Shown piece by piece: positions 57,624 to 64,000 of a stretch of 64,000 nucleotides of DNA. The stretch spans positions 248,001 through 312,000 of the forward strand of contig JALSGP010000033.1 in NCBI GenBank assembly GCA_026982705.1. The letters are read 5' to 3'. Made by a program: the position numbers and the translations under genes. The DNA is from Alphaproteobacteria bacterium. Lineage in GTDB: Bacteria > Pseudomonadota > Alphaproteobacteria > Geminicoccales > Geminicoccaceae. The notes under the pieces are model-generated. The model made no database searches. It saw nothing but the letters and a program-made list of their open reading frames with translations, and was not told where the DNA came from. Position 1 is the stretch's first letter. Every line of letters begins with the position of its first letter.

Positions 57624-58188
57624 ACGGGGAGCCGGAGACGGGAGAGGTGCGCGGCGGGCGGGTGCGGGAGGCGGTGGCCGTCTTCGACGCGGTGGCCGAC
57701 TACGAGGCGGCCCTGCACGCGCTGCTGGAGGCCGGCTTCGCGCCGGAGGAGATCCAGATGCTGGCCGGTTTCGAGACGGTGGAGAAGAAGCTGGGCCACC
57801 GCTACCGGCGGGTGGAGGAGCTCGAGGACGTGCCGGAGGCCCCCCGCACCGCCTTCGTCCACCTGGAGGATCTGGAGGCGGGCGAGCGGGCGGTGGCGGC
57901 GAGTCTCACCGTGCTGCCGACGCTGCTGGCGGGCGGACTGGTGGTGGCCTCCAGCGGTCCCCTCGCCGCCCTGCTGGCGGGCGCCGCCATGGCCGGCGGG
58001 ATGCTCGCCACCCTCCTCGCCGAGTGGCTGGGCGAGCACCGGGCCCGCGAGCTGGTGGAGCAGCTCCGCCACGGCGGCATCCTCCTGTGGGTGCGCGTGG
58101 ACACGCCCGAGAAGGAGCGGCGGGCGCTGGAGATCCTCCACCGCCACGGCGGCCGCGACGTGCACGTGCACGAGATCCCGCGGCCGGC

Positions 58189-58192
<4 letters not shown>
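57620..58192 (+). CDS. hypothetical protein with glycine/alanine-rich hydrophobic core
   Basis: 190 aa. The N-terminal AVFDAVADYEAALHALLEAG and EEIQMLAGFETVEKKLGHRY resemble general-stress-protein 17M-type domains. The middle (VLPTLLAGGLVVASS, AALLAGAAMAGGMLATLLAE) is a Gly-zipper-like hydrophobic segment. The C-terminal part ends in LWVRVDTPEKERRALEIL and a His-rich HVHEIP. I cannot name a function. ATG at 57620 overlaps the ligase stop. Convergent with queG by 4 nt. Confidence 0.75.
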
Positions 58193-59339
<1,147 letters not shown>

Positions 59340-59343
<4 letters not shown>

Positions 59344-60020
59344 CCCCACGGCCCCGGCCGACGGGATGCACGCGGCCGGCCCACCAGCGCCGCCACCAGC
59401 AGGCCGGCGGCGAAGCCACCCAGATGCGCCCACCAGGCGACGCCGCCCTCGCCGCCCGCGGTGATCGCCCCCAGGACCTGCACCACGAGCCACACGCCGA
59501 TGAGGACCGAGGCCGGCAGCCACAGGGTGAAGAGGAAGGCGACGGGGATCACCACCAGCACCCGCGCCCGCGGGAACCACAGCAGATAGGCGGCGAGGAC
59601 GCCGGAGATGGCGCCGCTCGCCCCCACCATCGGCACCTCGGAGGCGGGATCGAGGCCGAGGTGCAGCAGGCCCGCCGCCACACCGCTGCCCAGATAGAAG
59701 GCGAGGAAGGGGAGCGGCCCCAGCCGGTCCTCGACGTTGTTGCCGAAGATCCAGAGATAGAGCATGTTGCCGGCGAGGTGGACGAGGCCGCCGTGGACGA
59801 ACTGGTAGGTGAGGAGGGTGAGGGGCGCCGGCACCAGCACCAGCTCCGGCGCCAGCTCCGCGCGACCGCCGAGCACCGCCGGCACCACGCCGAGGCCTAG
59901 CACCAGCTCCTCGAAGCCGTGGGCGAGCTGCCCCAGATAGACCAGCACGCAGACGACGATCAGCGTCACCGTCACCACCGGCCGCCGGCGGGTGGGGTTG
60001 CGGTCGGCGACGGGGATCAC
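59340..60020 (-). CDS. rhomboid family intramembrane serine protease
   Basis: 226 aa, six or seven helices. The catalytic Ser is in GASGAISGV (about residue 135), the partner His in WWAHLGGFAAG (about 197), and FVHGGLVHLAGNMLYLWIFG is the conserved loop/helix. GTG at 60020 gives VIPVADRNPTRR. Overlaps DUF447 and queG genes by 4 nt each. Confidence 0.94.
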
Positions 60021-60595
60021 GGCGCCCCCGCCCGGTCCGCCGGCGCGCGGGCCAGCGCCTCCTCCAGCCACGCCCAGGCCTCGCGTTCGGCGGGACCGGC
60101 CGTCTTCTCCACCAGCACCCGGAGTCGCCGGAAGGCCGCCTCCACCTCCCCCCGCGGCAGGAGATGCAGGCGCGAGATCAGGATCGCCCCCTCCAGCACG
60201 GCGTGCCGGGCGCGGTTGAGGCCGAGGAAGGGGCGGTGGGAGGCGAAGTGGACCTCGCGGGCGAGGAAGCGCGGGCGCAGCGGGTCCGGCTCCACCGCCA
60301 CGACCTCCACCTCGGAATGGGCGAGGGCCGCCTCGAGGCGGAAGCCCGGGATCCGTTCCGCCGGCACCACCGACCAGTCGCGACGGCGACCGGTGACGCA
60401 GCCGGCGAAGATGCGGACGTCGTCCACATAGTTGACGGTGGCGAAGGGGCGGGCCTCCAGATGGTCGAGGGTGCGCGAGGGGCGGAAGGGCGCCAGCACC
60501 AGATGGGGCGGGCGTTCGATCACGCCGAGGGGGGCCGGGTGCGGCCGGCCCGCCGCATCCAGCGTCACCACCACGCTCTCGCGCACGAGACTCAC
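60017..60595 (-). CDS. DUF447 family protein (flavin-reductase-like fold)
   Basis: 192 aa. RESVVVTLDAAGRPHPAPLG, FRPSRTLDHLEARPFATVNY, and the C-terminal RARHAVLEGAILISRLHLL match DUF447, a family mostly found in methanogens and in methylotrophic bacteria that use tetrahydromethanopterin. Likely a pterin- or flavin-binding protein. GTG at 60595 overlaps the DUF6513 gene by 4 nt, the strongest evidence that they act together. Confidence 0.85.
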   Translation of the reverse strand: MSLVRESVVVTLDAAGRPHPAPLGVIERPPHLVLAPFRPSRTLDHLEARPFATVNYVDDVRIFAGCVTGRRRDWSVVPAERIPGFRLEAALAHSEVEVVAVEPDPLRPRFLAREVHFASHRPFLGLNRARHAVLEGAILISRLHLLPRGEVEAAFRRLRVLVEKTAGPAEREAWAWLEEALARAPADRAGAP

Positions 60596-61992
60596 GCGTC
60601 CTCTCCCCGCCGCCGCAGCGTCGCGCCGGGCGGGGCGAAGTGGGTGTCCGGTGCTTCCTCCCGGTCCACCGCCACCCCCCAGTCCAGCGGCTCGTCCTGC
60701 ACGTAGCGCTTGCCGAGGCGGAAGGCGATCTCGGCCCGTGCCAGCTCCACGCCGAGATAGAAGGCGTGGGCCCCGTCCGTCTCGACGCCGAGATGGGGGA
60801 AGAGGGCGAAGGGATCGCGCGCCACCCGGTGGGCGTCGCGGTTGTAGACGTGGATGCCGTCGGCGGCCACCTGGATGCGCCAGTTGCGATCCCGCACCGC
60901 CCGCGCCTCGGCGGCGATCTCCTCCGGCGCCAGCGGCCACGGCCGGCGATCGCGCAGGCACAGCAGGCCCGGATGGATGCCCTGGGGCAGACTTCCCTCG
61001 AGGCGTGCCCGGTGGAGGATGCGACGGGCGAGATCGGCCTCCTCCACCGCCCGGCGGCAGTGGGGGCTGACCGAGACCACCAGCACCTGGCGGATCCCCA
61101 GTTCCGAGCAGATGCCCATGAGGGTCATGGTGATGCCGGGAGTGTCGGCATCCGTGAGCTCGGTGAGATTGCCGATCCCCATGAGCATCTCCACTTCCGG
61201 CCGCCGGCGCCGCAGCTCCACGTAGCGGGCGAGGGAGGCGGCGAAGCCCATGTGGATGGGGTCCAGCACCGGATCGGCGAGGAAGGGGCGGCCCGCCGCC
61301 GCCAGCCGGTCCACCGCCCGCAGCAGCCCGTCGAGATCGCCCGGGCGGGCCGGGATCAGCACCGGCACCGCCTCCGTCTCGAAGGCGAGGTCCAGCGTCT
61401 CCTCGGTGAGGCTCAGCAGATAGTGGGCGCCGGCCTGGGCCCCGCGGCGGAGCTCCGCCACGTCGCCGGAATCGACGCTCACGGTGAAGCCCTCCGCCCG
61501 CAGCGCCGCCACCGCCTCCTCGAGATGGGGGAAGGCCGTGCCGGGCAGGCCGCCGAGATCGATCACGTCGGCGCCCCGCCGGCGCAGCGCGCGGGCGCGG
61601 TCGAGGATGGCCGCCACCGACAGCCGCGGCGCCTCCACGATCTCGGCGAAGATCCGGATGTCGTGGGCGGAGAGGTCGGGAGGACCGCCGGGACGGCCCA
61701 GCCATTCCGGCAGGTCGACGAGATCGTCGGGGCCGCGGAGGAAGGGGATGCCGAAGGTGCGGGCGAGCCGGTCGAGATCGCCGCGGAAGCGGCCGGGCAA
61801 CACCGCCCGGGCGGCACCGTCCACCGCACCCAGGCGGCGTTCCACGATCTCGGTGGTCATCAGCGCCGCCACCTTGACGCCGAGCTGGCGGATCTCCCAG
61901 TCGAAGGGAAGCGGGCCCATGCCCTCCAGCACCCGCCGGAGCCGCGGTTCGGCGAGCCGGCCGGTCAGGAACAGTACCTTCTCCCGGGTCAT
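60592..61992 (-). CDS. DUF6513 / dihydropteroate-synthase-like protein
   Basis: 466 aa. N-terminal DUF6513 (KVLFLTGRLAEPRLRRVLEG, MTTEIVERRL), central DHPS-like barrel (DVIDLGGLPGTAFPHLEEAV, FLADPVLDPIHMGFAASLAR, MGIGNLTELTDADTPG) and a C-terminal domain with RNWRIQVAADGIHVYNRDAH. Related to MJ0107-type proteins of tetrahydromethanopterin synthesis in methanogens and methylotrophs. ATG at 61992; the open frame beyond it is not needed. First gene of the four-gene run. Confidence 0.88.
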   Translation of the reverse strand: MTREKVLFLTGRLAEPRLRRVLEGMGPLPFDWEIRQLGVKVAALMTTEIVERRLGAVDGAARAVLPGRFRGDLDRLARTFGIPFLRGPDDLVDLPEWLGRPGGPPDLSAHDIRIFAEIVEAPRLSVAAILDRARALRRRGADVIDLGGLPGTAFPHLEEAVAALRAEGFTVSVDSGDVAELRRGAQAGAHYLLSLTEETLDLAFETEAVPVLIPARPGDLDGLLRAVDRLAAAGRPFLADPVLDPIHMGFAASLARYVELRRRRPEVEMLMGIGNLTELTDADTPGITMTLMGICSELGIRQVLVVSVSPHCRRAVEEADLARRILHRARLEGSLPQGIHPGLLCLRDRRPWPLAPEEIAAEARAVRDRNWRIQVAADGIHVYNRDAHRVARDPFALFPHLGVETDGAHAFYLGVELARAEIAFRLGKRYVQDEPLDWGVAVDREEAPDTHFAPPGATLRRRGEDA

Positions 61993-62076
61993 GCCACCGC
62001 CGCGCGCGTTCCTCCGTGCACAGGTAGCGGACGGTGCCGCCGCGACCAGTCGCGACGGGGACCGTTGGCGGGAGGG

Positions 62077-62104
62077 TTGCGGATCGCGGGGATTTGCGTA
62101 GAAT
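62077..62104 (+). promoter_or_regulatory. sigma-70-type promoter in the 251-nt intergenic region
   Basis: TTGCGG (62077-62082), 16 nt, TAGAAT (62099-62104). A good -10 match. The predicted start near 62111 is followed by a strong terminator at 62151-62176, so the transcript is short unless there is read-through to the UspA gene. Confidence 0.58.
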
Positions 62105-62110
62105 TGTCCC

Positions 62111-62176
62111 GACAAGAGGCGCAAGCCCACACGCAGGTCCGATCTCGCACGGAGGCGCAGGGCGCCTCCCTTTTTT
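62111..62176 (+). ncRNA. candidate small RNA or attenuated leader
   Basis: A 66-nt transcript is predicted between the promoter at 62077-62104 and the terminator at 62151-62176, with no ORF of note inside. It could be an independent sRNA, or a leader whose terminator controls the UspA gene 68 nt further on. No known sRNA family was recognised. Confidence 0.45.
62151..62176 (+). terminator. rho-independent terminator
   Basis: Perfect 8-bp stem GGAGGCGC (62151-62158) and GCGCCTCC (62162-62169) with an AGG loop, then C and six T (62171-62176). It is the only classic hairpin-plus-T terminator that I found in the window. Orientation is plus; the minus strand has no T-run. Confidence 0.88.
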
Positions 62177-62243
62177 CCTCCCGCCGCTTTTCGCGTCTCC
62201 CGCCGCGTGTCATTCTGGGGGCGGTCGCAAGCGGGACCACGCC

Positions 62244-63113
62244 ATGAAGCGCTACCGCCGCATCCTCTATCTCGTGGAGGGCGAGCCCGTGCGGGATTCC
62301 GCCCTCCAGCGGGTCCTCGATCTCGCCGCCGCCTTCGAGGGGCGGATCACATTGGCCCGCCTCGCCGGGCGCGGGGACGACCACGCGGACCTGGAGGGCC
62401 GGCTGCGCGGCTTTCTGGCGGGACTGGAGACACCGGTGCCGGTGACGCCGGCGGTCCTGCCGGCGGATCCGGAGGACCTGCTCGCGGCCATCGCGGCGGA
62501 GGCCTGGGACCTGGTGGCCAAGAAGGCCCAGCCGGACGACTCCCTCACGCGCTATCTCTTCGGCACGCTGGACACCACCCTGGTGGAGCGGGTGGCGGCG
62601 CCGGTGCTGATCGAGAAGCCCACACCCCACGAGCGCTTCGCGCGGATCCTCGCGGCCGTCGATCTCACCGACGAACGCGCCCTCGAGACCCTCATCCTCG
62701 ACCACGCCGTCTCCATCGCGCGGATGGAGCGGGCGCGGGTGGTGGTCTGTCACGTCTGGCACCTCGAGGGCGAGGAGGGCATGCGGGGGCGCGCCTTCAC
62801 CGACCGCGCCCGCCGCGCCATCGAACGGATGAAGGAGGAGGAGACCCGCCGGCGGCGGTCGGTGCTGGAGACCCTGCTCGCCCCCTTCACCGAGTTCGGC
62901 GTCGAGATCGCGCTGGAGGTGCACGAGGGCCCGCCGGCGCTCACCATCGTGGAGACGGCGGAGCGGCACGGGATCGACCTTGTGGTGATGGGCACCCACG
63001 TCCACTCCCATCTCGAGGGACTCGCCCTCGGCAGCACCGCCGAGGCGGTGCTGCGTCGCATCCGCTGCGCCCTGCTGGCCGTCAAGCCGCCCGACTTCGC
63101 CGTCCGCCGCTGA
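62244..63113 (+). CDS. tandem universal stress protein (UspA) family
   Basis: 289 aa with two Usp halves. The first (RRILYLVEGEPVRDSALQRV) has lost the usual ATP motif; the second (FARILAAVDLTDERALETL) ends with VMGTHVHSHLEGLALGSTAE, close to the G-2x-G-9x-G(S/T) ATP-binding pattern. Cytoplasmic stress-linked protein. ATG at 62244. Preceded by the candidate sRNA/attenuator, which may control it. Convergent with the FadL-type gene by 16 nt. Confidence 0.92.
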   Translation: MKRYRRILYLVEGEPVRDSALQRVLDLAAAFEGRITLARLAGRGDDHADLEGRLRGFLAGLETPVPVTPAVLPADPEDLLAAIAAEAWDLVAKKAQPDDSLTRYLFGTLDTTLVERVAAPVLIEKPTPHERFARILAAVDLTDERALETLILDHAVSIARMERARVVVCHVWHLEGEEGMRGRAFTDRARRAIERMKEEETRRRRSVLETLLAPFTEFGVEIALEVHEGPPALTIVETAERHGIDLVVMGTHVHSHLEGLALGSTAEAVLRRIRCALLAVKPPDFAVRR

Positions 63114-63129
63114 ACCGGCCGGCGGGATC

Positions 63130-64000
63130 TCAGAAGGTGACGCGGCCGCCGACGGCGAGGATGTCGATGGCGTTGTCGTAGCGGGCGGTGAGATTGCCGC
63201 GGAAGGTGTTGCCGGCGCCGGCGGTGGTCAGGCGCACGCGCGAGCTCTCCACCCAGATGTGGGTGTAGCCGACATCGAGGGTGAAGCCCGCGGCCGGCTG
63301 CCAGCTCAGTCCCACCGTCAGCCACCAGCGGTCGTCGCCGGGGATCCGGGGCGTGCGGAAACGGGTGCGGATGGGCGTCTGGTCGTGGGCGATCCCGGTG
63401 CGCAGCACGAGGCCGTCCACGGGACGCCAGCTGGCCCCGAGGGCGAAGAACCAGGAATCCTGCCAGCGTTCGTCGGTGACGCTGTCGGCCTCGGCCGGAT
63501 TGTCGAAGCGCACCCGCAGCTCGTCGAAGACGCTCCAGCGGGTGAGCTGGGCCTCGGCCATGAGCGCCAGCTCGGGCGTGAGTTCGTGGTAGAGGCCGAA
63601 GGAGATCTGGTCGGGCAGGGTGAGACGGGCCTCGCCGCGGGTGTCCACGAAGCGGCCGGTGGCGGCCGAGAGGGTGGCGCCGATGCCGGCGCCGTCCAGC
63701 GTGAAGTCCACGTCGCCCCGGAGATTGTGCTGCACCCGCGAACGGTAGCCGAGGCCGACGCGTGTCCCCGCCCACGGCTCCATGAGGATCCCGGCCACCA
63801 CGCCCACGCCGAGGGAGTCCCCCTCGAGTTCCACCCGACCGTCCTGGGCACCGGGGACGGCGCCCGGGATGCCCAGCACCGCGCCGATGGTGCCGAAGTC
63901 CACGGCGTTGGTGAGGCGCGCCTCGGCGTACTGGATCTGCAGACCGAGGCCCACGGCGAGGCGGGAATCCGGCCGCAGCGCCAGCATCGGCGTGACGGTG
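63130..64000 (-). CDS. outer-membrane transport protein, FadL/OmpP1/TodX family (partial)
   Basis: C-terminal 290 codons of a beta-barrel, cut by the right edge; the reading frame continues past position 64000, so the ATG at 63987 is internal. LAVGLGLQIQYAEARLTN, GTRVGLGYRSRVQHNLRG, LPDQISFGLYHELTPELALM, RTGIAHDQTPIR and the C-terminal DILAVGGRVTF ending in Phe are typical of FadL barrels, which take up fatty acids or other hydrophobic compounds. Confidence 0.9.
   Translation of the reverse strand, partial: TVTPMLALRPDSRLAVGLGLQIQYAEARLTNAVDFGTIGAVLGIPGAVPGAQDGRVELEGDSLGVGVVAGILMEPWAGTRVGLGYRSRVQHNLRGDVDFTLDGAGIGATLSAATGRFVDTRGEARLTLPDQISFGLYHELTPELALMAEAQLTRWSVFDELRVRFDNPAEADSVTDERWQDSWFFALGASWRPVDGLVLRTGIAHDQTPIRTRFRTPRIPGDDRWWLTVGLSWQPAAGFTLDVGYTHIWVESSRVRLTTAGAGNTFRGNLTARYDNAIDILAVGGRVTF

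Follow-up and report, generated by a model that had tools for sequence, protein, structure and literature searches.

Among the small RNAs (sRNAs) described to date, the closest in position to the one considered here is SdhX (RybD) of the enteric bacteria, which, in the accounts consulted, derives from the end of sdhCDAB-sucABCD through cleavage by RNase E (PMC6393394; PMC9438474). Within the Alphaproteobacteria, Rhodobacter sphaeroides is described as having 3'-UTR sRNAs, such as UdsC, which lie behind protein genes and end in terminators (PMC8625941; PMC9779115), and most of which have 5' ends predicted to be RNase E ends (PMC8625941); the string 'sdh' is absent from the main text of PMC8625941. 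The same species has StsR, a trans-acting sRNA described as pairing with the leader of the dcw cluster and as being induced by RpoHI and RpoHII (PMC11354728). For the Geminicoccaceae, which the NCBI taxonomy places in the alphaproteobacterial order Geminicoccales, no described sRNA was found in the literature on sRNAs of the family, on sdh-linked sRNAs of Alphaproteobacteria and on surveys of RNA families, a body of work taken here with most subscription papers and bioRxiv outside its scope.

The locus under consideration lies in a stretch of 64 kb from a Geminicoccaceae genome (the window; its genome is numbered G000, and related genomes accordingly), and it holds what looks like an undescribed regulatory RNA gene of ~66 nt, kept almost letter for letter across the family (Table 1). 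Its likeness to SdhX resides in a placement behind the genes of succinate dehydrogenase, in a short conserved sequence presumed to be the seed and in a presumed link between the TCA cycle and other genes (PMC6393394; PMC9438474), the placement being that seen in the relatives and not at the window's own locus. The Geminicoccaceae RNA differs from SdhX, however, in having conserved promoter boxes and in being able to reside away from sdh; moreover, the SdhX targets named in those accounts, such as ackA, are not implicated for it. The best reading is that it is a counterpart of SdhX in position, shared descent or biogenesis not being implied; given that SdhX is made by RNase E and that the likeness is positional, the RNA is filed here as a new sRNA family rather than as an SdhX. 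With UdsC and its kind it shares an alphaproteobacterial host, a place behind protein genes and a terminator at its end (PMC8625941; PMC9779115), but its 5' end would not be of the RNase E kind predicted for most of them.

Table 1. Features of the predicted sRNA locus and its neighbours, in positions of the window
Feature	Positions	Strand	Basis
-35 box TTGCGG (sRNA promoter)	62077-62082	+	direct reading of letters
-10 box TAGAAT (sRNA promoter)	62099-62104	+	direct reading of letters
Predicted sRNA, ~66 nt	62111-62176	+	start inferred from -10 box, end from T-run
Small 5' hairpin GGC-GCAA-GCC	62118-62127	+	alignment of relatives
Core GCAGGTCCGATCT, presumed seed	62133-62145	+	near-invariance; start-proximal complementary sites
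Intrinsic terminator	62151-62176	+	8-bp stem 62151-62169, T6 62171-62176; stem covariation
Upstream neighbour, DUF6513 protein (weak pterin-binding match)	60592-61992	-	
Downstream neighbour, Usp-domain protein (UspA)	62244-63113	+	

Direct reading of the letters gives a spacer of 16 nt between the promoter boxes and a distance of 46 nt from the -10 box to the hairpin, in agreement with the original prediction. The hairpin, GGAGGCGC-AGG-GCGCCTCC, has eight Watson-Crick pairs and a 3-nt loop, and is followed by C and six T. It had been put forward as the only perfect hairpin-plus-T terminator in the window, and a script that demanded at least six perfect pairs with at least five T close behind indeed returned it as the sole instance on either strand; the same search applied to 20 first-order randomisations of the window gave one match, and none with 8 bp. 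The fold of the 66-mer as a whole is unexceptional (z = -1.30, with 22 of 200 shuffles equally good), and the small 5' hairpin is absent from the MFE fold of the window's own RNA. The region had also been described as having no ORF, which is correct as regards likely genes and incorrect as regards mechanical ORFs, since these run through it and include the UspA frame extended upstream (62034-63113, + strand) and the DUF6513 frame likewise extended (62130-60592, - strand). No family of Rfam (release 15) reaches its gathering threshold at the site, and two relatives compared with Rfam gave sub-threshold matches only, the best at 21 bits where the threshold is 95.5. Elsewhere, the window contains a TPP riboswitch aptamer (RF00059, 4431-4541, - strand, 78.8 bits), which is its only Rfam match at gathering threshold.

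The promoter, which had been called a good one, is weak by the E. coli consensus: a scan for at least four of six consensus positions per hexamer finds no promoter in 58000-64000, this one being missed because TTGCGG retains TTG alone. The boxes and their spacing stand, and it is their conservation in relatives that supports the assignment. The pattern TTGNNN-N15-18-TANNNT lies upstream of the RNA in 15 of the 30 loci, as compared with a mean of 0.8 and a maximum of 6 in 500 shuffles, and a looser pattern, picked after the sequences had been viewed and showing TTG or TAG at the -35 position, does so in 29 of the 30 (shuffle mean 5.1, maximum 14). In G002 and G003, both of the window's genus, the boxes are identical to those of the window. 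In other words, at the level of sequence there is a conserved pattern of the kind that a trans-acting sRNA of the Hfq type would have as its own promoter.

Within the RNA itself, an alignment of 26 sequences (A2) shows ACACGCAGGTCCGA to be invariant; the first ten bases of the core GCAGGTCCGATCT do not vary among the aligned sequences, and its last three hardly do so. The idea that a CCTCCC tail could pair with ribosome-binding sites is not upheld, as CCTCC sits in the terminator, on the 3' side of its stem, and the conserved stretch outside the stem is the core. Length changes of 1 nt and 2 nt occur among relatives inside the conserved block, on account of which it looks non-coding. A shared small ORF was considered, a few members reading ATGAGGCG..., and was rejected because its frame is broken both in the window's genus, where the block is 2 nt shorter, and in G021, where it has 1 nt inserted. 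G020, G022, G012 and G013, which are divergent members, retain GCAGGTC and a terminator, and in these four, as judged by eye, the 5' hairpin has been swapped for a different sequence that still pairs (AGGGC-ACAA-GCTCT, GCGGC-TCAA-GCTGC, AAGGC-GCAA-GCCTT and CGCGG-CTCGAT-CCGCG).

In a model alignment of 28 distinct rows (A4), 93.8% of the cells pair, a figure that leans to the favourable side because A4 was fitted to the structure; with the partners slid, pairing falls to 44-74%. Six of its 11 pairs have changed on both sides, a count as high being found in 1 of 500 shuffles, and all six lie in the terminator; the hairpin seen in the window, with its U-tail, is accordingly accompanied by stem covariation in the relatives, as befits a Rho-independent terminator. 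The 5' hairpin is nearly invariant in A4, such that the covariation count neither supports nor contradicts it. An alternative pairing of GAGGC with GCCTC allowed by RNAalifold had no pair changed on both sides and was set aside. Over the predicted folds of 30 sequences the unpaired fraction of the core averages 0.47, in part because the core is predicted to form a small hairpin of its own.

Searching 96 genomes with positions 62050-62243 of the window gave strong matches, the aligned part of which is essentially the predicted transcript, and most of which lie on contigs other than that of the nearest UspA homologue. A covariance model built from 26 sequences (R1) matches the window at 62108-62179 with 70.2 bits, the window's own sequence being among those from which it was built, and detects a single copy in 27 of the 31 genomes of the order, spread over 13 of 16 genera; the four genomes missed are G001, which belongs to the window's genus, G005, G006 and G007. 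Both the promoter and the hairpin, the conservation of which the original prediction had made its test, are kept within the family, and this supports the half of that prediction which spoke of a free sRNA. Across the class, R1 matches five genomes of the family at E <= 2e-20 among 387 genomes, and a further 19 outside it at E 2.4e-6 to 0.01; the five best of these 19 were read as coding DNA or unrelated terminators. No credible member was therefore found outside the family among the 387 Alphaproteobacteria sampled, where the sequences of these five best matches were read, and very divergent ones could have escaped detection given the stricter filters used in searches of more than 40 genomes.

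Records that carry the core pattern and have names are mostly Geminicoccaceae or alphaproteobacterial MAGs, named carriers including Geminicoccus, Arboricoccus and Marinimicrococcus, with a few odd labels. Two of the latter, L101 (labelled Pyrinomonas, and with an sdhB end) and L107 (labelled Gammaproteobacteria), do carry the sRNA and are probably mis-binned Geminicoccaceae contigs; L090 is a chance match inside a gene taken by eye for GMP synthase. A 20-nt core pattern, blind to the shorter form found in the window's genus, had no exact match among viral contigs.

As regards genomic context, 26 of the 30 loci have sdhB upstream of the RNA and on its strand, the distance being 81-206 nt (from the end of sdhB to the core, 81-95 nt for 23 of them and 182-206 nt for three, of genus g2), and NCBIfam confirms the SdhB of two relatives and the SdhA of one. 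The four loci without an upstream sdhB are L107 and those of G002, G003 and the window itself. Three genomes of the window's genus, G000, G002 and G003, have no such RNA behind sdhB, and in them it is found elsewhere; the contig of G001 stops 40 nt past sdhB. In the window's genome it sits between the DUF6513 gene and uspA, in G002 between uspA and a gene taken by eye for tgt, and in G003 it adjoins a gene taken by eye for clpA. The G003 locus (L063) also has nearby ORFs that by eye resemble a GHMP-type kinase and a dihydropteroate-synthase-like protein; together with the DUF6513 neighbour in the window, the new site may be within a pterin or methanopterin cofactor neighbourhood. Fifteen of 16 further sdhB 3' regions (those of G006, G007 and 13 genomes of other families) contain nothing similar. 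In the sixteenth, that of G005 (L163), a terminator GGAGGC-TTCG-GCCTCC-TTTCTTTTT and promoter-like boxes occur without the GCAGGTCCGATCT core, perhaps as a decayed or very divergent member. On the downstream side, uspA follows the sRNA in two of the 30 loci, and, of the 29 downstream genes called, 20 are convergent and nine co-directional. Taken together, the linkage to sdhB, the different place in the window's genus and the convergent neighbours show the sRNA behaving as an independent unit, neither a leader of uspA nor merely a terminator of sdh. The gene probably arose behind sdhB, where most of the family has it with a promoter of its own, and would then have moved, in the window's genus, to the site before uspA with promoter, core and terminator kept.

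An hfq gene is present in 29 of the 31 genomes, that of the window included, so that the host encodes the protein that would assist such an RNA. With respect to targets, an 11-base part of the core has 82 exact complements (GATCGGACCTG) in the 31 genomes, of which 23 are by position the sRNA itself. Forty of the 59 others were examined alongside 40 of 185 sites of a block-swapped control 11-mer, GGACCTGGATC, which is biased towards coding sequence; an earlier control was dropped as poor because it contains GTAC, which is rare. Genes around the sites were called with a codon score for which eight genes served as the training set, and a site was counted as start-proximal where a start on the matching strand lay between -20 and +50. 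On this basis 8 of the 40 core complements are start-proximal as against none of the 40 control sites (Fisher p = 0.005), and 23 as against three are intergenic, while antisense starts number one and two, respectively. The core complement is not commoner overall than the control; it is merely placed differently. Base pairing of the core with mRNAs is regarded as likely, the individual sites being candidates.

For seven of the eight start-proximal genes an identity was sought. Six of them are genes for a DUF900 hydrolase and a metallophosphatase in G010, a flgK-like and a gp25 baseplate-like gene in G013, and a GNAT gene (with a similar site in G029) and a DUF1127 gene in G008; the seventh received no assignment and is in G001, a genome with no detected sRNA. 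At one position of the G013 core C is replaced by T, such that pairing there would require a G-U pair. No target conserved across the family emerged among the core-complementary sites. The nearest approach to StsR, likened here by description alone, is an exact 11-base complement in the leader of rsmH, in the dcw cluster, of G004, G018 and G029; rsmH was selected after the matches had been seen, four of 30 of its leaders beat all 60 shuffled seeds, and it was rejected as a conserved target, the exact site being in three of the 30 leaders only.

Some complementary sites lie in other settings. The only non-self exact complement in the window's genome (L218, at ~61465 of G000:C33, outside the window) lies just past a stop codon, with a terminator-like hairpin following at once, and is possibly a sponge-like 3' end. 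Sites recur in similar intergenic sequence in G029, G019 and G025, which are of one genus (L230, L234 and L240), and likewise in G024, G004 and G018 of genus g2 (L222, L224 and L226), there ~60 nt behind a co-directional gene.

The presence at the site of a real sRNA gene under selection is very probable. As to what it does, the preferred reading, to which a probability of about 0.7 is given, is that of an autonomous gene the RNA of which acts in trans by base pairing, probably with the assistance of Hfq. A promoter of the housekeeping type would direct a ~66-nt transcript, ending at its own intrinsic terminator, in which the small 5' hairpin is followed by the nearly invariant core of 13 nt and by a U-tail such as Hfq binds. 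Aided by Hfq, the core would pair with the leaders or start regions of several mRNAs and thereby alter their translation or stability, and where the gene is linked to sdhB the RNA may act alongside the expression of succinate dehydrogenase.

An SdhX-type origin, with the RNA cut by RNase E from the 3'-UTR of the sdh mRNA and the promoter-like boxes secondary or incidental, would fit the placement behind sdhB on the same strand in most loci, as well as the predicted RNase E 5' ends of most known Rhodobacter 3'-UTR sRNAs (PMC8625941). It is nonetheless unlikely, as the boxes conserved between sdhB and the RNA argue against RNase E as the sole route, and the window's genus has the RNA away from sdhB with the same boxes. 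The placement behind sdhB would equally suit an intrinsic terminator of the sdh operon that is kept for that job, its RNA having no function; this is less credible still, in that conservation peaks in the core before the stem and not in the stem, promoter boxes lie upstream, and the element persists in the window's genus away from sdhB, at sites with no sdh mRNA to terminate.

The remaining half of the original prediction, a transcription attenuator or riboswitch in the uspA leader of which the short RNA is merely the terminated product, is similarly improbable. It is true that the window and G002 have the hairpin between a promoter and a co-directional uspA start, and that RNAalifold permits the 5' GAGGC to pair with an arm of the terminator; against this, that pairing has no changes on both sides, no Rfam riboswitch is found at the site, uspA is rarely the downstream gene and no co-directional gene is conserved there, most downstream genes being convergent. 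An invariant core of such length is unusual for a seed with many targets, and this, with the ability of the core to form a small hairpin and the want of a conserved mRNA target, could instead point to the binding of a protein or of another RNA, as by a sponge. That possibility is a minor one, given the excess of complementary sites near starts and that no protein-binding motif was identified.

Returning to the autonomous, base-pairing sRNA, a broader and more tentative proposal, which is rather less than evenly probable, is that it arose at the end of sdh independently of SdhX, with its own promoter, and reports the state of the TCA cycle to a changing set of mRNAs, its relocation in one genus, to uspA and other neighbours, having uncoupled or rewired that link. 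The candidate sites under such a proposal would be those before flgK, the DUF1127 gene, the GNAT gene and the dcw cluster. If correct, it would represent convergent evolution of an sdh-linked regulatory RNA, and the parallel with SdhX bears on whether operons of central metabolism repeatedly acquire sRNAs. In practical terms, the covariance model makes annotation of the sRNA straightforward. For the family, a nearly invariant core in 13 of 16 genera and a fixed place behind sdhB amount to a strong and unexplained constraint; the different location in the window's genus provides a natural experiment, the RNA there being separated from the expression of sdh, and the sRNA may tie central metabolism to other genes of these bacteria.
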